39,623 nucleotides of DNA from an uncultured Schlesneria sp. (GTDB taxonomy: Bacteria > Planctomycetota > Planctomycetia > Planctomycetales > Planctomycetaceae): positions 1-39,623 of the forward strand of contig CAILLA010000270.1 of assembly GCA_903834925.1 (NCBI GenBank), given 5' to 3'. Below, piece after piece: positions 3,435 through 39,623 of this stretch. The position numbers were made by a program, and so were the translations under genes. Positions within the stretch are counted from its first letter, which is position 1. Each line of letters starts with the position of its first letter. The notes under the pieces were generated by a model that was not told where the DNA came from, ran no database searches, and saw only the letters and a program-made list of their open reading frames with translations.

Positions 3435-3462
3435 GGTGAGCCGGGTGGCATAAGCGCTCGGA
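3435..3462. repeat. family-B short interspersed repeat (gagccgggyggcrtaag core)
   Basis: The 28-nt core (ggtgagccgggtggcataag then cgctcgga) matches, on the same strand, the copy at 28505-28532 and, in inverted orientation, a block inside lpxK at 4039-4066. It lies just after the dehydrogenase stop codon. Confidence 0.75.
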
Positions 3463-3484
3463 ATCTTTGTGTTTTGAAGAGGGG

Positions 3485-3596: not shown

Positions 3597-4883
3597 ATGG
3601 ATGAAGCTGCTCTGAACGAATTGCTCTCGGGACGCCGTCGCGATATCGCCGCGAAGGGGCTTCGTGGCGTTTTGCAAGTAGCATCGTGGGGTTACGCCTC
3701 GGTAATGAGCTTGCGAAATCTTGCATATTCCAAGCAATGGCTTCCGGTTCATCAAGTTTCTGTTCCTGTTATCAGCCTAGGTAACATCACCACTGGTGGA
3801 ACTGGCAAAACCCCTATGGCAGCATGGATAGCAAATTGGCTGGTTTCTCAGGGTCGTAAGCCTGGGTTGCTGAGTCGAGGCTATCGATCACTCAATCGGA
3901 AATCTCATGGGAAGTTCGAGAAAAGTCCCTTTCTTGACAATGCCCCACCTGTTGACATGTCACAACGCGAGAACGACTCACCTATTCTGAACCGGTCCTG
4001 CGGCGCGCATGGGCTGTCTGCGGCGGAAGGGGCAAGAGTCCGAGGGCTTACGCCGCCCGGCTCACCTGATCAACGCGCGAGCGACAATCCTATTCTGAAC
4101 CCGTCATGCGACGCGCATGGACCGCCTGCGGCGGTGGGCAATGATGAGAAGTTGGTTTTGGATCGGCTTTGTCCGGGGGTTCCGCATCTTCAGCAGCGGG
4201 ACCGAGTGACCTCGGCTGGCAGGTTGATTGCTGAGTTTGGATGTAATGTACTGTTGCTTGACGATGGGTTTCAGCATCGACGTTTGTATCGGGATCTGGA
4301 TCTGGTTTTGGTTGATGCATTGAAGCCTTGGGGTTATGGGCACGTTTTGCCTCGCGGACTGTTGCGTGAGTCGATGAGTGCATTGCGTCGAGCTGACCTG
4401 GTTGTGATTACGCGAGCTGATCAATGTTCGGCAGATCAGCTTCAGGCGTTGCGTGATGAGTTACGTCAGATTCGTGGATGCAGTGATTGTGCCGAGATTG
4501 CGTTCAAGCCGACTCAATTGGTTGACGTAAACTGGCAACCGCATGCATTGAGTTCTGTTGCTGGAAAAAAAGCATTTGCGTTTTGCGGGATTGGTAATCC
4601 AGACGGCTTTCGAAAGACGGTGAGTTCACTCAGGGTGAACTGTGATCTGATTCAAGGATTTCCCGATCACTATCATTACCAGATGAACGACCTTGTTAAA
4701 TTGGCGAAGACCGCGCGAGAGAATTCCGTCGACGTCGTTTTCACGACACAGAAAGACATCGTGAAGATTTCGACAGACGCCTGGGACGGGCCGCCACTAT
4801 TCGCGGTCGAGATTGGCGTCGAGTTTATCCATGGCCGCGAATTACTGGAGAACCGTTTGGTGAGAACGCTGAAGTTGAATTGA
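3597..4883 (+). CDS. lpxK: tetraacyldisaccharide 4'-kinase LpxK with an internal repeat-derived insertion
   Basis: LpxK phosphorylates the 4' position of the tetra-acylated disaccharide-1-phosphate to make lipid IVA, acting at the inner membrane. The N-terminal helix is followed by the P-loop GNITTGGTGKTP (residues 62-73) and SRGYRS (93-98). The C-terminal half has GNDEKLVLDRLCPGVPHLQQ and the conserved LDDGFQHRR (221-229), then LVLVDALKPWGYGHVLPRG. The protein is 428 residues. About residues 101-181 are not LpxK-like; removing them leaves about 347, the usual length. That segment carries two copies of a QR..(S/N)PILN.SC.AHG unit flanking RVRGLTPPGS, all encoded by interspersed DNA repeats. 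All catalytic motifs remain in frame, so the enzyme may still work. It is convergent with the Opu genes. Confidence 0.93.
   Translation: MDEAALNELLSGRRRDIAAKGLRGVLQVASWGYASVMSLRNLAYSKQWLPVHQVSVPVISLGNITTGGTGKTPMAAWIANWLVSQGRKPGLLSRGYRSLNRKSHGKFEKSPFLDNAPPVDMSQRENDSPILNRSCGAHGLSAAEGARVRGLTPPGSPDQRASDNPILNPSCDAHGPPAAVGNDEKLVLDRLCPGVPHLQQRDRVTSAGRLIAEFGCNVLLLDDGFQHRRLYRDLDLVLVDALKPWGYGHVLPRGLLRESMSALRRADLVVITRADQCSADQLQALRDELRQIRGCSDCAEIAFKPTQLVDVNWQPHALSSVAGKKAFAFCGIGNPDGFRKTVSSLRVNCDLIQGFPDHYHYQMNDLVKLAKTARENSVDVVFTTQKDIVKISTDAWDGPPLFAVEIGVEFIHGRELLENRLVRTLKLN
3963..4139 (+). repeat. A-B-A mosaic of interspersed repeats inside lpxK
   Basis: Family A unit 1 (3963-4031) and unit 2 (4071-4139) each start caacgcg and include cctattctgaacc(c/g)gtc and gcgcatgg. 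Between them lies a family-B core at 4039-4066 in inverted orientation relative to 3435-3462. The A core also occurs outside any gene at 8752-8801 on the opposite strand. All three blocks stay in the lpxK reading frame with no stop codon. Confidence 0.85.
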
Positions 4884-8658: not shown

Positions 8659-8751
8659 TGTATGCAACCAATGACGAGTCCCAAGAGAAAGTGTATTTCT
8701 TCAGCTTATCACGTGACAGATCCAACCGCGACCGGCACAGCCGGTTTGTGC

Positions 8752-8801
8752 TTGTGTGCGCCGAATGACGGGTTCAGAATCGGTTGATCGTTCGGGCGTT
8801 G
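8752..8801 (-). repeat. family-A interspersed repeat, intergenic copy
   Basis: Read on the minus strand it begins caacgcccgaacgatcaacc and continues with gattctgaacccgtc and gcgcacac. This matches the two blocks embedded in lpxK, and even the conceptual translation (QR.NDQPILNPSFGAH) is alike. A small hairpin (accggc-aca-gccggt) lies beside it at about 8730-8745. Confidence 0.8.
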
Positions 8802-8809
8802 CTCGGGAG

Positions 8810-8886
8810 GGCGAAGCTGGTCTGATGAAGGGGTGTTTGCGTTGCCAGGGATGATGCGATTTTGAAACGGAATGCTTCGATGTAAT
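8810..8886 (+). repeat. family-F repeat, diverged copy next to family C
   Basis: This segment (gcgaagctggtctgatgaa ... cggaatgcttcgatgtaatg) aligns loosely with 24199-24281 and with the reverse complement of 29485-29565. In all three places it abuts a family-C element. Confidence 0.5.
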
Positions 8887-8990
8887 GGGTGCCACGGTTT
8901 TACCGTCTTCGGTAAGGCAGCGCTCTTCAGACGCGTTACAGACCCATGACGACACGGCCTTGTCGAGGACTCCAAAACCGTGGCACCCCG
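8887..8990 (+). repeat. family-C double-hairpin palindromic element
   Basis: The outer arms gggtgccacggtttt and aaaaccgtggcacccc bracket two inner hairpins built on ttaccgtcttcggtaa and on cacggccttgtcgagg. Related copies are at 24282-24385 (opposite orientation), 29381-29484 and, with altered stems, 22628-22722. The copy ends about 100 nt before the sulfatase start. Confidence 0.85.
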
Positions 8991-9095
8991 ACCCGTAGCG
9001 GACTTCCAGCCGCCGTAATCCAACCGTCACATCATCTCGAACCTTTACTCCGAACATCTTTGAGCTTTTTCGAGCTCAACGCTACCATCATCCAC

Positions 9096-10646
9096 ATGAA
9101 CACATTCTTTAAAATTACAATCGTGTGGGTGCTCGTGATCACGATTCAATCTGAATCGCCTGCGGTCGCCCAGTCGTCTCGTCCAAACATTGTTTACATC
9201 CTGGCTGACGATCTCGGCTACGGCGACGTGCAAGCGTTCAACCCGCAAAACGGTAAAATCAAAACGCCGAATCTCGATCGACTGGCGACTCAGGGAATGA
9301 TGTTCCGCGATGCTCATAGTGGTTCGTCTGTTTGTTCCCCGACCCGTTATGGATTGTTAACCGGCCGGTATTCGTGGCGAACACGAATGCAGTCCGGAGT
9401 TCTTAATGGTTTTTCGCCTCCGTTGATCACTCGTGATCGGCTGACGGTTCCCGCTCTGTTAAAACAACACGGTTACGCGACGGCCTGCGTCGGTAAATGG
9501 CATCTGGGGATGGACTGGCCGAAATCGACTGGAACTTCATTCGATCCTTCGGGCAAAATCGTTCCTGCGCTTACGGATATCGATTGGGCCAGATCGATTG
9601 CGAATGGTCCGACGACGTTGGGGTTCGATTATTATTTCGGGATCAGTGCGTCACTCGACATGCCTCCATACGTATTCATTGAAAATGATAAAGTCACGTC
9701 AGTTCCGACGACCGAGAAGAAATGGATTCGCTCTGGCCCCGCCGCTAATGATTTCGAAGCAATCGACGTCTTGCCCGCATTGACAAGCAGGTCTAGCGAA
9801 CTGATCGACAGCTACGCCAAAGATGCACAATCCGGCAAGCCATTCTTCTTATATCTCGCCCTGGCCTCGCCACATACTCCCGTGTTACCCACCAAAGAGT
9901 GGCAAGGGAAAAGTGGGTTGGGCGATTATGCCGATTTCGTCATGCAGACCGACGCTGCGATCGGTGAGGTGCTGGCTCGGTTGGACAAAAATCATTTGAC
10001 GGACAACACGCTCGTGATTGTGACCAGCGATAATGGGTTTGCACCGCCGGGCGACCCTCAAAACGTGCTGCGTAAGTCGGGGCATTTGCCGAGCGGCCCA
10101 TTCCGTGGCAGCAAGGCCGATATTTTCGAAGGAGGACATCGAGTCCCTTTCATTGCACGCTGGCCCTCTAAAATCCCTGCTGGCACGATCAGTGATCGAA
10201 CGATCTGTCATACAGACTTGATGGCAACCTGCTCGGAATTGCTGAACACACGCGTTCCAGACAACGCCGGCGAAGACAGCATCAGTTTTCTGCCAGCACT
10301 GTTTGGAAAGAACGAGATCGCGAATCGCCCAACCATTGTCAACCACAGCTCTACGGGACGCTTTGCCATTCGTGAAGGGGTCTGGAAGCTAACACTCTGT
10401 CCTGGCTCGGGCGGCTGGGCCTTGCCGAAAGATGAGGAAGCGATTCAGCAGGGACTTCCGTCGCTGCAATTGCATGATCTTTCCCAAGATCCCGGTGAAG
10501 TTGCCAACTTACAGGCAGCCCATCCCGAGATCGTCAACCGCCTGAAAGCTCGCTTACGTTCAGAAATCGCCAATGGTCGATCTACTCCCGGCGCGAAGCA
10601 GGCCAACGATGTCGCAATCAAAATCGAGGCCCTTGCCTCCGAGTAA
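9096..10646 (+). CDS. secreted sulfatase, arylsulfatase A family
   Basis: A 516-residue exported sulfatase expected to hydrolyse sulfate esters, probably on polysaccharides; the substrate is unknown. A signal peptide (MNTFFKITIVWVLVITIQS, cleavage near AVAQ) precedes NIVYILADDLGYGD, which carries the metal-binding aspartates D38 and D39. The formylglycine motif is SVCSPTRYGLLTGR with Cys80 as the residue to be matured. The second signature is GYATACVGKWHLG. VTSDNGFAPPG (near residue 310) supplies further metal ligands. A longer in-frame start at 8946 would translate family-C repeat DNA, so ATG 9096 is preferred. No anaerobic or FGE-type maturase is next to it. It stands alone between repeat DNA and small minus-strand genes. 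Confidence 0.94.
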   Translation: MNTFFKITIVWVLVITIQSESPAVAQSSRPNIVYILADDLGYGDVQAFNPQNGKIKTPNLDRLATQGMMFRDAHSGSSVCSPTRYGLLTGRYSWRTRMQSGVLNGFSPPLITRDRLTVPALLKQHGYATACVGKWHLGMDWPKSTGTSFDPSGKIVPALTDIDWARSIANGPTTLGFDYYFGISASLDMPPYVFIENDKVTSVPTTEKKWIRSGPAANDFEAIDVLPALTSRSSELIDSYAKDAQSGKPFFLYLALASPHTPVLPTKEWQGKSGLGDYADFVMQTDAAIGEVLARLDKNHLTDNTLVIVTSDNGFAPPGDPQNVLRKSGHLPSGPFRGSKADIFEGGHRVPFIARWPSKIPAGTISDRTICHTDLMATCSELLNTRVPDNAGEDSISFLPALFGKNEIANRPTIVNHSSTGRFAIREGVWKLTLCPGSGGWALPKDEEAIQQGLPSLQLHDLSQDPGEVANLQAAHPEIVNRLKARLRSEIANGRSTPGAKQANDVAIKIEALASE

Positions 10647-24198: not shown

Positions 24199-24281
24199 GT
24201 GCAAGGCCGGACTGTTGAAAAGGCAAAGCCGGGGCAAGACAATAGTGTTGCACCTTATGAGCGGAAAAGCAGCCGAAGCTC
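24199..24281 (+). repeat. family-F repeat next to family C
   Basis: The segment ggccggactgttgaaaagg ... tgttgcaccttatgagcgg ... cagccgaagctc aligns end to end with the reverse complement of 29485-29565 and loosely with 8810-8886. In each case family C follows directly. Confidence 0.65.
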
Positions 24282-24385
24282 GGGGTGCCACGGTTTTGGA
24301 GACTTCGACAAGGCCGTGTCTTCATGGCTCGATAAATTCTCCGAAGAGCGCGGCCTTACCGAAGACGGTAAAACCGTGACACCCG
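24282..24385 (-). repeat. family-C double-hairpin palindromic element, inverted orientation
   Basis: Outer arms ggggtgccacggtttt and aaaaccgtgacaccc, inner blocks gacttcgacaaggccgtg and cggccttaccgaagacgg. The order of the inner blocks is reversed relative to 8887-8990 and 29381-29484. It lies about 230 nt before the M50-HlyD gene. Confidence 0.85.
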
Positions 24386-24618
24386 TTACCGCGGCTTTCT
24401 GTTCCAAAAACGCTACACTCCCTGCAACGCGAACATCCTATCTTCAGATCGTTTCATCGGGCCAACCTCGCTCTCCCATAGGGTTGCTAAAGAAGCCCGC
24501 GCCGTGTTTCTTCATTTTCTCTCGATCTTCCGTATTTACTCGCGAAACTCTGACGCCGCCAACGACGAACTGATGCGGTTTCGATATCCTGATAGCATAA
24601 CCCATTCAAACTCGAATC

Positions 24619-26799: not shown

Positions 26800-26817
26800 C
26801 AATTCACACGAGAACGC

Positions 26818-26947
26818 AACCCCACCGCCCCCGTGGCGGTGGTTAACGGGCCTTCGCACCAGCACGACCCACCATTCATCGGCACGACAAAATTCAAATT
26901 CCTAGGGCAAAGCCCCGTTAACCACCTCCGCAGGGGAGGTGGGGTTT
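26818..26947. repeat. family-D long palindromic element, copy 1
   Basis: A 130-nt imperfect palindrome. The ends are aaccccaccgcccccgtgg and cctccgcaggggaggtgggg, each able to fold into its own small hairpin. The inner arms are gttaacgggccttcgcacc and gggcaaagccccgttaac. Copy 2 is at 28556-28680, so the pair brackets the DUF1501 gene. Confidence 0.85.
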
Positions 26948-26970
26948 CGAAAAGAGGGTCGTTTGTTCCT

Positions 26971-28392
26971 TCACGCCAAAAGTTTCTGCACAACGTTTCC
27001 ATGCACGTCGGTCAGCCTGAAATCCCGTCCCTGGAAGCGGTACGTTAACTTCGTGTGATCAAATCCCATCAGATGCATGATTGTCGCATGCAGATCATGA
27101 ACGTGAACTCGATCCGCCGTGGCATTGAACCCGAACTCGTCCGATTCACCGATCGTGATCCCCGGCTTCACGCCGCCGCCGGCCATCCACATACTAAAGC
27201 AGTTCGGATGATGGTCGCGTCCGTCGTTGCCTCCTTGGACCATCGGAGTCCTCCCGAACTCGCCGCCCCAGATCACCAGAGTGTCTTCCAATAGCCCGCG
27301 TTGCTTAAGGTCCATGATCAGCGCAGCCGAAGCCTGGTCCGTCTTGCCACATTGATCCTTGAGGCCATTCACCAGACCGCCATGATGGTCCCAGGCTTCG
27401 TGGAACAGTTGCACGAAACGGACCCCTTTCTCGACCAGTCGACGAGCCAGCAAACAGTTGTTCGCAAACGACGATTTTCCAGGTTCCGCTCCGTACATTT
27501 CTAAAGTTGATTTCGTCTCGTTCGAAAGATCCATCAGCTCCGGAGCGCTCGCCTGCATCCGGTAGGCCATCTCGTAAGAACTGATCCGAGCGGCGATCTC
27601 GGGGTCGCCGGTTGCTTGCAGCCGAAGCTCGTTCAACTGGCGAAGTGAATCGAGGGATTCACGCTGGATTTGTCGATCGATTCCACGCGGGTTATCGAGG
27701 AACAGCACCGGCTCACCACTGGATCGGAAAAGGACCCCTTGATTCACGGTCGGTAGAAACCCGCAGCCCCAGTTCGACTGACCGCCGCTCGGTCCCTTCG
27801 ATCCCGAACTGAAAACGATAAAACCGGGCAAGTCCTGCGATTCGCTTCCCAGACCATACAACGACCACGCCCCCATGCTGGGCCGACCGAACTGTTGTGC
27901 CCCGGTGTTCATCATGATCTGGCCGGGAGCATGATTGAAGGCGTCGGTGACCATCGATTTCACGATCGCCACGTTGTCGACAACTTTCGCCAGATGCGGC
28001 AGCAATTCCGACAGTTCCGCTCCCGATTCTCCGTGTCGGGCGAATTTGAATTTCGGACCCAGCAAGGTCGAATTCGGATTGATAAACGCCGCACGATAAT
28101 CCTTGATCAGTTCCGGTGGCGGCTGCTTGCCATCCCACTTGGCCAGTTCCTGCTTGTTGTCAAACAGTTCCAGATGAGAAGGAGCACCCGCCATAAACAG
28201 ATAGATGACTCGCTTGGCTTTGGGCGCGAAGTGCGGCTGCTTGGGAAGCATCGAATCGACGAGTGACGGAGCGGCATTGCCTTGTCCCGCCATCAGCGAC
28301 CCTAATGCTGCCGAGGCAAGGCCAACTCCGCAGTCCTGAAAGAACCAGCGTCGTGTCAGTTGGCGGCCTGTTTCAAAGTCGATTGTCGTCAT
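26971..28392 (-). CDS. DUF1501 family Tat-exported protein
   Basis: A DUF1501 protein of about 473 residues. The N-terminus has the twin-arginine start [19 protein letters not shown], so it should be exported folded. [51 protein letters not shown] and [21 protein letters not shown] are the conserved stretches of this family, which belongs to the alkaline-phosphatase/sulfatase-like fold group. ATG 28392 puts the Arg pair at a normal distance; ATG 28416 adds eight residues. In Planctomycetota the gene is usually paired with a DUF1549/DUF1553 cytochrome-type gene, but no such partner is next to it here. It is bracketed by two family-D palindromes. Confidence 0.92.
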
Positions 28393-28504
28393 CGGTCGAT
28401 TCCAGAAGCGAAACATGGACGGACGGATTTATTCTTTTTCATGATACCGGCAAGAGCATGGGGGACGCCAAGCCAGCCGCCGGTCTTAGAATGTTAAAAA
28501 ACCA

Positions 28505-28532
28505 GGCGAGCCGGGCGACGTAAGTCCCCGGA
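28505..28532. repeat. family-B short interspersed repeat
   Basis: The core ggcgagccgggcgacgtaag then tccccgga matches 3435-3462 and, inverted, the block inside lpxK at 4039-4066. It lies between the DUF1501 start and the second family-D palindrome. Confidence 0.75.
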
Positions 28533-28555
28533 TTCTTCAACGAAAATTAAAACAC

Positions 28556-28680
28556 AACCCCACCTCCCCTGCGGAGGTGGTTAACGGGCCTTTGCACCAG
28601 CGCGCCGTTTGACGGATAAATGAGATTTCATTTTCTAGGGCAAAGGCCCTATAACCACCTCCACAGGGGAGGTGGGGTTT
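28556..28680. repeat. family-D long palindromic element, copy 2
   Basis: A 125-nt imperfect palindrome with ends aaccccacctcccctgcgg and acaggggaggtggggttt and inner arms gggcctttgc and gcaaaggccc. It matches 26818-26947 apart from the central loop. It ends 48 nt before the sigma-factor start, so it may lie inside that gene's leader. Confidence 0.85.
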
Positions 28681-28728
28681 CCATGAAATTTCGACATTCG
28701 TCAAACGGCCAAACCCAGGAAAACGCAG

Positions 28729-29361: not shown

Positions 29362-29380
29362 CACGAAAAATCCGCAAAAA

Positions 29381-29484
29381 GGGTGGCACGGTTTTACCGT
29401 CTTCGGTAAGGCCGTGCTCTTCGGAGACATTATCGATCCATGAAGACACGGCCTTGTCGAAGACTCCAAAACCGTGCCACCCCG
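29381..29484 (+). repeat. family-C double-hairpin palindromic element
   Basis: Outer arms gggtggcacggtttt and aaaaccgtgccaccc, inner blocks accgtcttcggtaaggccg and cacggccttgtcgaagac. Same orientation as 8887-8990. It begins about 20 nt after the sigma-factor stop codon. Confidence 0.88.
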
Positions 29485-29565
29485 TGTTTCGGCTCCTTTT
29501 CCGTTCATCAGGCGCAACAGGATTACCTTACGCCAGTTTGGCCTTTTCATCAGGCCAGCCTCGCC
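29485..29565 (-). repeat. family-F repeat next to family C
   Basis: On the minus strand this reads gaggctggcctgatgaaaa ... ggtaatcctgttgcgcctga ... ggaaaaggagccgaaacacg and then runs into family C. It aligns with 24199-24281. It ends just before the queG stop codon. Confidence 0.7.
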
Positions 29566-30887: not shown

Positions 30888-31659
30888 CGTGTGTTGACGG
30901 CAAACGTAATGCGGTTTCTTTACGTTTGGATGATGCCTAAGTTAATAGAGGAATTTGAAGAAAAGAATGGGACGCATGGGACTTATGCGACAACGATAGC
31001 ACCGCGATGGGCGGATAGCGCTGTATAGGGTTCTTTTTTCCTCGGTAGGAAGTCAAGGCATTTGGGCTGCCGGGACTGATCAAACTTATTGGACAAAGAA
31101 AGCACAGTCTTTGTCATACCGTCCCATGTGTCCCAATCTTCTTTCCTGCTGACCCAAGTGGCCAGTAAGAATTTTTGTTACGCCGTTAGAACCCGACTTC
31201 GGCAGAATTTGCCGAAGTTTAATCATGGGATTTGCCGACGTCCGTTCGCCGCGTTCTTGCTTGCTTGGCATCATCGCTGCTGCATGTTGTCCAATCGGGC
31301 TGGTGGCTTGAACAATTTGCTCATGTTGCCCAGTCGTTACGTTCGTGTCGTCTCGGGTCGGTGCAGGTGACGCAGTGTCGCTGATCGTTGTCGTCCTCCA
31401 ACTTTACGTGATCCGCCGAGATTGCATTTGCTGTCAAGAATATTTCGTGGCTTTGACCAGCAGTTCTTGCCTGTCCGACCGGACGTTTTTCCTTGATGTA
31501 GAATTCACGCAATCGACGACGTTTTGACGTTGCGGGTGATGAACGTTTCACACCAATCGCTTGTCAAAACTTTGCGCGAGCGGGATCAAGGAGGTTTCCT
31601 GACTGACGTGCCAAGACGGCGCGGCCGACCGATTTCGTAACACCATTCGTGGAGACGAC
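30888..31659. other. 770-nt region without a supported gene; repeat E fragments and a hairpin
   Basis: Family-E 'aatgggac..atgggac' sequence is at 30964-30990 and in inverted form at 31117-31141. At 31196-31218 a perfect 9-bp hairpin (acttcggca/tgccgaagt, 5-nt loop) occurs, followed by tttaatc, which is too short a T-run for a strong terminator. The frames present here are short and have no recognisable family. The last part should hold the promoter of the gene that starts near 31660. Confidence 0.5.
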
Positions 31660-33530: not shown

Positions 33531-33565
33531 TTCATAAGTCCCATCGATCCCATAAGCCCCATTCT
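33531..33565. repeat. family-E repeat (ataagtcccat / cccataagcccc)
   Basis: The sequence ttcataagtcccatcgatcc then cataagccccattct is shared with the arms at 34718-34788 and, in the opposite sense, with 30964-30990, 35851-35870 and the in-gene copy 36853-36900. It marks the left edge of the plus-strand cassette. Confidence 0.7.
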
Positions 33566-33617
33566 TTTGTTTAACGACAAAAAAGTTTCAAAAAATAAAA
33601 AAACACGCAAAATAGTA

Positions 33618-34717: not shown

Positions 34718-34788
34718 ATGGGGCTTATGGGACCCATAAAAACAGTCGCACAAGTCCCAGGTGTCCTATTGGGTCCCATAAGCCCCAT
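34718..34788. repeat. perfect 19-bp inverted repeat of family E
   Basis: The arms at 34718-34736 (atggggcttatgggaccca) and 34770-34788 are exactly complementary with a 33-nt loop. The loop itself contains a further tcccaggtgtcc fragment. It occupies most of the gap between the lipoprotein and papain-like genes and may be a terminator, attenuator or mobile palindrome. Confidence 0.8.
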
Positions 34789-38715: not shown

Positions 38716-39623
38716 TGCCTGGTTATAAAGGTGACATCGTTGTCGGGTCTACGTTGTATTTCTCGTTCAATACGAGAGATTCCGGTGGAAATCCTATTAC
38801 GCTGGCAGGCACTCCCGTCGCCAGCGTCTTCAAAAATGCAGGGACGACTCCTTGTACAACAGCTCCAGTTCTGACCGTCAACAATGGCCAGACGGGGCGT
38901 CATACTGTTACCGTCAACACGGGCGTCGATACGACATTCTACGCGAACGGAAACGACTATTCGGTGGTGCTCACGGCGGGGACGGTGAATGGAATATCTG
39001 TCGTTAGCGTCGAGGTGGCCAGCTTTTCCATCAACAATCGAACGGTGGCTTCGGTTTTGACAGGGATGGCAACTCATGCCGACGTGACAACGGTTGTAGC
39101 TTCGATTACGGCTATGGGAATTCCTTTGCAAGCGTCGGCATACGTCGTTCCGAGTACACCTCCGACAGTGGTACAAATCCGTCAGGAAATGGATACGAAT
39201 TCGACGAAGCTTTCGAACCTGGACGTAGCAGTCTCCAGTCGCCTGGCGACAACGGCATACACGGCACCGCCAACCGTGTCATCGATTCAATCTGGCTTGG
39301 CGACACATACTGATGTCACGACGATCGAAGCGTCGATCACGGCCCTGGGGAGTCCATTGCAGGCGACGGCGTACGTTGCTCCGAGTACACCCCCGACTGT
39401 GGTACAGATTCGTCAGGAAATGGATACGAATTCGACGAAGCTTTCGAACCTGGACGTAGCGGTCTCCAGTCGCCTGGCGACAACGGCATACACGGCACCG
39501 CCAACCGTGTCATCGATTCAATCAGGCTTGGCGACACATACTGATGTCACGACGATCGAAGCGTCGATCACGGCCCTGGGGAGTCCATTGCAGGCGACGG
39601 CGTACGTTGCTCCGAGTACACCC
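38715..39623 (+). CDS. fibre-like protein with 77-residue tandem repeats, 3' end cut by window edge
   Basis: 303 residues are visible from ATG 38715 and the frame stays open at the window edge. The N-terminal 115 residues form a beta-rich domain (GDIVVGSTLYFSFNTRDSGG). From about residue 119 a 77-residue unit repeats: (A/L)ATH(A/T)DVTT..., VPSTPPTVVQIRQEMDTNST, KLSNLDVAVSSRLATTAYTA, PPTVSSIQSGL. The unit mixes a helical, N-rich motif with short beta parts, as in phage tail-fibre proteins. Copies 2 and 3 are nearly identical at the DNA level. It follows the beta-helix gene with a 1-nt overlap. Secreted adhesin is the alternative, but no signal peptide is visible. Confidence 0.65.
   Translation, partial: MPGYKGDIVVGSTLYFSFNTRDSGGNPITLAGTPVASVFKNAGTTPCTTAPVLTVNNGQTGRHTVTVNTGVDTTFYANGNDYSVVLTAGTVNGISVVSVEVASFSINNRTVASVLTGMATHADVTTVVASITAMGIPLQASAYVVPSTPPTVVQIRQEMDTNSTKLSNLDVAVSSRLATTAYTAPPTVSSIQSGLATHTDVTTIEASITALGSPLQATAYVAPSTPPTVVQIRQEMDTNSTKLSNLDVAVSSRLATTAYTAPPTVSSIQSGLATHTDVTTIEASITALGSPLQATAYVAPSTP
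39070..39623 (+). repeat. 231-nt tandem repeat, at least 2.4 copies
   Basis: The repeat period is 231 nt (cgacacatactgatgtcacg begins at 39301 and again at 39532). An earlier copy starts at 39070. Copies 2 and 3 are near-identical over the visible part; copy 1 differs in its first about 100 nt but matches copy 2 almost exactly over its last about 130 nt. The array continues past the window edge. Confidence 0.9.

Follow-up and report, generated by a model that had tools for sequence, protein, structure and literature searches.

The LpxK protein encoded in the 39,623-nt stretch of DNA analysed here (hereafter, the window) carries a translated insert built from repeats. In the reading that we prefer, to which we assign a probability of about 0.86, a copy of a dispersed repeat, A, entered a loop of lpxK in the ancestor of a clade, a unit composed of A and a second repeat, B, was added later, and the result is a nearly neutral translated loop. 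The window is contig C270 of its own genome, G000, a 9.02-Mb assembly of 307 contigs; its LpxK matches two contigs of uncultured Schlesneria MAGs at 75% and 72%. Three congeners of G000, designated G001, G002, and G005, likewise hold many copies of repeat A. The features of the window on which the argument rests are the following.

3435..3467, minus strand: repeat B copy between an Iso_dh-family ORF and lpxK (repeat match 3435-3462)
3597..4883, plus strand: lpxK ORF, 428 aa (Pfam PF02606, E 1.6e-75; best Foldseek matches 4lkv, 4ehy, and 4ehx, all LpxK)
3888..4136, plus strand: expanded LpxK loop, residues ~98-180, between SRGYR and GNDEK (from loop lengths, pLDDT, and dN/dS)
3963..4026, plus strand: repeat A copy 1 (A1), in a unit absent from G001, G002, and G005
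4034..4066, plus strand: repeat B, REP-like, in frame within ARVRGLTPPGSP (match start 4034/4038; a separate family)
4071..4134, plus strand: repeat A copy 2 (A2), the nearer of the two to the single A of G001, G002, and G005
4121..4135, plus strand: 3' hairpin of A2, ACCGCC-TGC-GGCGGT, a paired variant of the family stem
8733..8801, minus strand: repeat A copy 5' of a sulfatase ORF (8946-10646), outside Pfam-supported ORFs (8755-8801 by repeat match, 8733-8800 by profile)
28505..28537, minus strand: repeat B copy just past the ORF at 26971-28416 (repeat match 28505-28532)

An earlier note on this DNA had described two copies of A flanking B in frame within lpxK, with further copies of both repeats elsewhere in the window, and both observations are borne out by these coordinates.

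Several other repeats occur in the window. A dispersed repeat of 107-187 nt is found at 8884-8990, 24201-24387, and 29378-29564, in copies that are 86-87% alike, and its matches extend to loci of G001, G002, and G005. Composite inverted repeats at 26813-26949 and 28551-28681, the latter adjoining a B copy, have arms beginning AACCCCACC that are 81-93% alike and lie about 1.7 kb apart. Short repeats around ATGGGGCTTATGGGACCCAT occupy 30955-30991, 33538-33574, and 34718-34788 and include one exact 19-nt inverted pair with a 33-nt spacer, and a 231-nt tandem repeat (39041-39622, about 2.5 copies, 73-84% identity) reaches the contig end.

The lpxK frame is open across the whole insert, with no stop. 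As had been claimed from the letters of the sequence, the motifs on either side are intact: among 75 aligned LpxK proteins, Walker A (GGTGKT, residues 67-72) is invariant, and DDGFQHRRL (residues 222-230) is invariant or at least 90% conserved. The length that remains once the ~81 extra residues are subtracted, ~347 aa, is indeed normal for LpxK, compared with 360-372 aa in the A-free homologs P0018-P0022. Comparison of LpxK loci, in which 18 of 19 loops could be parsed, the window's own included (G029 was not parsed, and G004 gave no LpxK match), places the difference between the SRGY and NDEK motifs. The loop between them spans 89 residues with two A copies in G000, and 56-58 residues with one A each, in the same loop and frame, in G001, G002, and G005. 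The A-free loops are 18-35 residues long in ten other genus members and 10-11 in four family members.

These comparisons resolve the insert into two layers: an older A common to the three congeners, and an A+B unit. The two 64-nt copies in the window, 108 nt apart, are 83% identical to each other, and the single A of the congeners is 84-88% identical to A2 and 73-79% identical to A1. Since the congeners' A is nearer A2 than A1, the unit of A1 and B (108 nt, 36 codons) is probably later than the shared A. A search for B on the 5' side of A in the congeners' LpxK loops gave no match at E values up to 10. Thus, A in this loop is older than the window's species, and the idea of an inserted repeat stands, while that of a single insertion event gives way to an older A followed by a later A+B unit.

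Database homologs extend this picture. Among the best 120 of 7843 LpxK homologs past the cut-off, 119 of which gave a parsed loop (P0069 did not), the A peptide is present in 13, the window's own record included; 12 carriers match the A motif, and inspection of the loops by eye added P0012 and dropped P0042. The remaining 106 of the 119 parsed proteins are without the segment, as the earlier note predicted. P0006, a database LpxK that is 90% identical, is also a two-copy form with the extra 108-nt A+B unit, and P0016 and P0015 carry three and four motif copies, respectively. A tree of 51 LpxK homologs requires three changes for the A label, and a single origin is not rejected (p-AU 0.40). Because the length of this loop varies in A-free lineages too, LpxK yields no exact empty site. 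Three LpxK proteins without A (P0042, P0087, and P0108) have other repeat-like peptides, of the GEAPAEP or QEPRPP type, in the same loop. Presence and absence of A in lpxK are direct observations; the route of entry, which we infer, would be that one A copy entered the loop between SRGY and NDEK in the clade ancestor.

Repeat A measures 65 nt and is asymmetric, its 3' end forming a 6-bp hairpin (ACCGGC-TGT-GCCGGT). The consensus of 56 full G000 copies reads GTCAACGCGCGAACGAT, three variable positions, CCTATTCTGAACCCGTC, a variable stretch, and CCGACGCGCATGAACCGGCTGTGCCGG. Among 207 full copies from four genomes, five of the six stem pairs are kept in 89-95% and the outermost in 39%, and a few copies show swapped pairs; RNAalifold of 49 copies returned only nine pairs, spread over three short stems, and the covariation term was small. 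The consensus is not a palindrome as a whole unit, and its ends, TCAACGCG and CCGGCTGTGCCGGT, form no terminal inverted repeats on inspection. The proposal of a palindromic element that enters genes in frame, as in Rickettsia, is therefore sound as to in-frame entry and fails as to the palindromic unit, A being asymmetric with a 3' hairpin.

According to a sequence-only model applied to 15 genus genomes, A has at least 140 matches in G000, 152 in G001, 137 in G002, and 124 in G005, compared with 3 in G007, 2 each in G014 and G006, 1 each in G003 and G004, and 0 in the other six; these figures are lower bounds, with 150 candidates scored per genome. At the family scale, under filters stricter than those of the genus census, A was matched in 10 of 150 genomes, belonging to 3 of 58 genera. 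The detailed analyses below use 229 copies, a mostly high-scoring subset of at least 553. The 177-nt stretch 3963..4139 has 53 genome matches including itself, the best other place having an E of 4.7e-30; these matches, together with the zero count for the reversed-B control described below, put the stretch far from chance. Repeat A is thus a DNA element of 65 nt, non-coding in scale and dispersed, that belongs to a single clade of Schlesneria-like planctomycetes.

Repeat B, with the REP-like consensus CCGAGGGCTTACGCCGCCCGGCTC, behaves as a REP, being a short stem-loop present in many copies and in inverted pairs. Its pattern, with one mismatch allowed, occurs 60 times in G000, 24 in G001, 43 in G002, 40 in G005, and 97 in G008, and the reversed pattern, used as a control, gave 0 matches in the 15 genomes. 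In several inverted pairs of G008 the two starts are separated by 40-50 nt, as with C35:36239 on the minus and 36286 on the plus strand. Because G008 has 97 copies of B and no A match, B is an independent family, and the idea of A and B as one element is ruled out. The two repeats are often joined into a composite whose junction is fixed: of the 229 A copies, 57 have a same-strand B no more than 25 nt to their 5' side and none has one on the opposite strand, and the gap is 7 or 8 nt in 51 of the 57 pairs. Inspection of both consensus sequences found no terminal GTAG/CGTC tag beside a stem; the sequence beside the B stem is GTGAG, not GTAG. The expectation that both repeats would have many genomic copies, and that some copies of A would lie in frame in other genes, was correct.

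Evidence for the latter comes from a six-frame test of codon scores on both flanks, which placed 12 of the 229 A copies in genes, all in one orientation and frame. The hosts are LpxK of three relatives, a Cas4-Cas1 fusion, and, in two genomes each, a WYL regulator and an SPFH protein. The Cas4-Cas1 fusion holds five A copies at three sites; its best PADLOC model is Cas1g, and the same contig encodes Cas56g, Cas7g, Cas8g, and Cas3g. A looser coding filter added one ORF of 89 aa without a Pfam family. The window's own A1 and A2 failed the coding-flank filters, the probable reason being that the sequence flanking them is part of the loop. A search of a protein collection with the A peptide, QRANDxPILNPSSDAxxPAVP, found further carriers, including argininosuccinate lyase P0127 (ArgH), pseudouridine synthase P0128, ferredoxin-like P0139, and P0130 and P0131, which we take from their motifs to be HUH-type transposases. 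It should be noted that P0127, P0128, P0130, P0131, P0134, and P0139, having been found by the peptide, are uninformative on frame bias. Carriers with an N-terminal A (P0132, P0136, P0137, P0140, L284, and the 514-aa ORF of L282) were not counted as hosts, since A may sit upstream of the true start; the ORF of L253, presumably DUF1501-like, was left uncounted with its N-terminal A as well. In the Cas4-Cas1 protein P0142, the peptide QEPRPP lies beside A, and P0141 has a different insert instead of A at the third site, in the interior of Cas1. Several repeat families may use the LpxK loop and the Cas4-Cas1 site as landing zones.

Orthologs without A exist for some of these hosts. ArgH of G000, G001, G002, and G005 matches P0127 over residues 1-226/227 and 275/276-513 at 87-93% identity, and where P0127 carries two A peptides, G000 ArgH reads LLGFTRATSASTFEVAVAANSLDV, with only a few residues at the gap. 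The SPFH protein contains A in the same four genomes, and its G014 ortholog, at 83-86% identity, does not. In 60 strand-aware cross-species comparisons of A clusters, 21 were 1:1, 29 were unequal with at least one copy on both sides, and 6 were equal with 2 or 3 copies; A was wholly missing on one side in 4, all with diverged or unequal intervals. Most of these loci were chosen for holding A, so that empty sites are under-sampled. Repeat A thus varies in head-to-tail copy number, and it is this change of copy number that is visible, the first insertion being what we infer. A separate observation concerns L107:2320-2777 in G002, where five A copies with a 99-nt period leave a 202-aa frame open; this ORF was not accepted as a gene. 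The orthologous place in G005 has no A on that strand, and a single opposite-strand A is present in both.

No target duplication at A was readable in the 60 comparisons, and neither the neighbourhoods nor the abundance of HUH/Y1 genes tied a transposase to A. Among the Y1_Tnp loci of G000, A is present at 1 of 10 (L069), inside the neighbouring SPFH gene; among loci matched by P0131, A is present at 5 of 30, and those match P0131 around the A peptide alone. G014 has 60 P0131 matches and 2 copies of A, so HUH abundance does not track A; in G001, all P0131 hits among the matches listed lie around the A peptide, yet the genome has at least 152 copies of A. B gave two weak matches there, both within the A array of L239. 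Mobilisation of A by HUH/RAYT enzymes is thus unsupported by neighbourhood and abundance.

Of the 229 A copies, 193 leave the peptide frame open, compared with 15 to 92 for the remaining five frames; we put the openness of the peptide frame down to the consensus sequence. If openness alone counted, the chance of all six independent sites being in the peptide frame would be 0.44^6 = 0.007; resting on six sites, the frame preference may be partly chance. Among 189 non-genic copies, the peptide frame has a synonymous excess of 1.31, as weak coding constraint would produce, but the value for frame -1 is 1.35, and stop changes occur at 1.86 times expectation, that is, with no avoidance. The 11 genic copies show an excess of 1.23 in the peptide frame and of 1.32 and 1.46 in two other frames. 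Of 80 same-strand A-A spacings below 140 nt, 27 are divisible by 3, which is the chance level. These substitution counts and spacings give no sign of selection on the frame outside genes, and codon-level selection on non-genic copies was rejected, the frame -1 excess being equal or higher and stop changes exceeding expectation.

We considered whether the A peptide could instead be a co-opted functional linker, its frame and soluble sequence being selected, for example, to tune LpxK, Cas4-Cas1, or SPFH assembly. The shared frame and orientation of all six independent sites of the six-frame test, the retention of A across four species in LpxK and SPFH, and the three to four motif copies in P0016 and P0015 would fit such a role. 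However, genic copies show no synonymous excess special to them (1.23), LpxK, ArgH, and SPFH all have orthologs without A, and the hosts share nothing obvious, which leaves this explanation improbable. In the insertion model, by comparison, the peptide reading being stop-free in most copies would explain why the insertions that survive in genes mostly share this frame and orientation, and insertions would persist in loops where a soluble, disordered linker harms little. This survival by frame and loop is proposed on the strength of frame, structure prediction, and substitution rates.

The LpxK loop has the properties of such a site. Pairwise dN/dS among four species (6 pairs) is 0.47-0.95 in the loop, part of which aligns poorly, versus 0.09-0.14 in the core. 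An AlphaFold2 model built with 75 sequences (mean pLDDT 80.8), whose best PDB matches are Aquifex LpxK, gives 323 of 428 residues a pLDDT of at least 70 and residues 99-176 values below 50. The loop is predicted to be disordered and is relaxed; fast substitution and low pLDDT mark it as a tolerant site, and, with dN/dS below 1, weak constraint may still act on it. Identities between P0001 and P0006 amount to 88/97 before the loop, 50/83 inside it, and 248/248 after it, an abrupt shift that suggests recombination or a mosaic record.

These data bear on the test set by the earlier note, according to which conservation of the segment in close relatives would make it an ancient domain: a relative, P0006, does share the two-copy segment, yet the segment is the fastest-changing part of the protein. 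On the rates of change and the predicted disorder, we rejected the ancient domain reading. A related explanation, that the loop is a genuine LpxK domain under selection and that the copies in the genome are pieces that spread out of coding genes, might draw on the age of the insert, common to at least four species, and on the one frame open in most copies. We regard it as very improbable, because A is also found in unrelated proteins and in many places outside long ORFs, the loop evolves at the rates given above with 50/83 identity to P0006 and predicted disorder, and stop changes are in excess in non-genic copies. Finally, a repeat-driven misjoin in metagenome assembly, to which contigs ending in A arrays (e.g., C125 and C92, where the repeat breaks assemblies) and the mosaic-like P0006 might point, is scarcely credible, given A in the same LpxK loop and frame in four separate assemblies, further database proteins carrying A, and an lpxK without frame or stop damage.

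Returning to the two-layer insertion, duplication or insertion of the 108-nt (36-codon) A+B unit after the first entry would have produced the two-copy loop of the window, and the insert most likely stays in the translated product, where it would form a nearly neutral loop that has no role of its own. A bolder reading, which we consider unlikely though less so than the alternatives above, is that A is a selfish element with one translation-compatible frame, which yields a soluble, disordered, mostly stop-free peptide, and that A colonises loops of essential enzymes and of CRISPR adaptation proteins and so acts as a natural linker generator; if this were true, A copy number would vary inside host loops across the whole clade.

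The significance of these results, in our opinion, lies in the in-frame entry of short repeats into genes of a 9-Mb planctomycete (lpxK, Cas4-Cas1, and, by protein records, ArgH), a phenomenon best known from reduced intracellular genomes. LpxK proteins with 0, 1, 2, 3, and 4 motif copies form a natural series in which the cost or benefit of the insert is directly testable. For annotation, QRANDxPILNPSSDAxxPAVP should be treated as a repeat signature and not as a domain. No earlier report of the repeat A family was found by title or abstract start in the open-access literature on planctomycete or Schlesneria repeats, in-frame REPs, and lpxK repeats.

Related systems are known from other bacteria. 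Wolbachia reportedly has protein-coding palindromic repeats. RPEs lie in frame within Rickettsia genes, and they resemble A in being short dispersed repeats, intergenic as well as in frame in unrelated genes, with a recurrent peptide (PMC10969869). Like RPEs, A is inserted in frame in unrelated protein genes in one main frame; unlike them, it measures 65 nt versus ~150 nt, ends in a hairpin, forms tandem arrays, and resides in a 9-Mb planctomycete genome. MITEs with ORFs, such as intragenic ERIC, are described in the same paper as non-autonomous and able to fuse in frame with genes (PMC10969869); A is similar in lying in frame with genes and differs in a consensus without terminal inverted repeats. 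PARCEL repeats are described as amphipathic repeats found mostly in membrane proteins and share with A a DNA symmetry within protein-coding repeats and a variable number (PMC2996958), whereas A enters soluble enzymes too and is mostly outside supported genes.

The intragenic GTAG/CGTC REPs of Di Nocera and others (2013) are recorded from several species, including Opitutus terrae and Rickettsia conorii, with groups that encode up to 82 aa and may be neutral where they form linkers or loops; the PVC superphylum is named there as a source of GTAG repeats (PMC3733652). Both they and A/B are small hairpin repeats inside ORFs; A, however, has no terminal tag and is not a simple stem-loop, and B, although REP-like, has GTGAG beside its stem. 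The suggestion of a parallel beyond the phylum of Rickettsia is upheld, with the amendment that earlier records of in-frame REPs exist outside Rickettsia, among them Opitutus (Verrucomicrobia) (PMC3733652). Repeat A works like RPEs and other intragenic REPs, and represents a new example of a known phenomenon in a new group.
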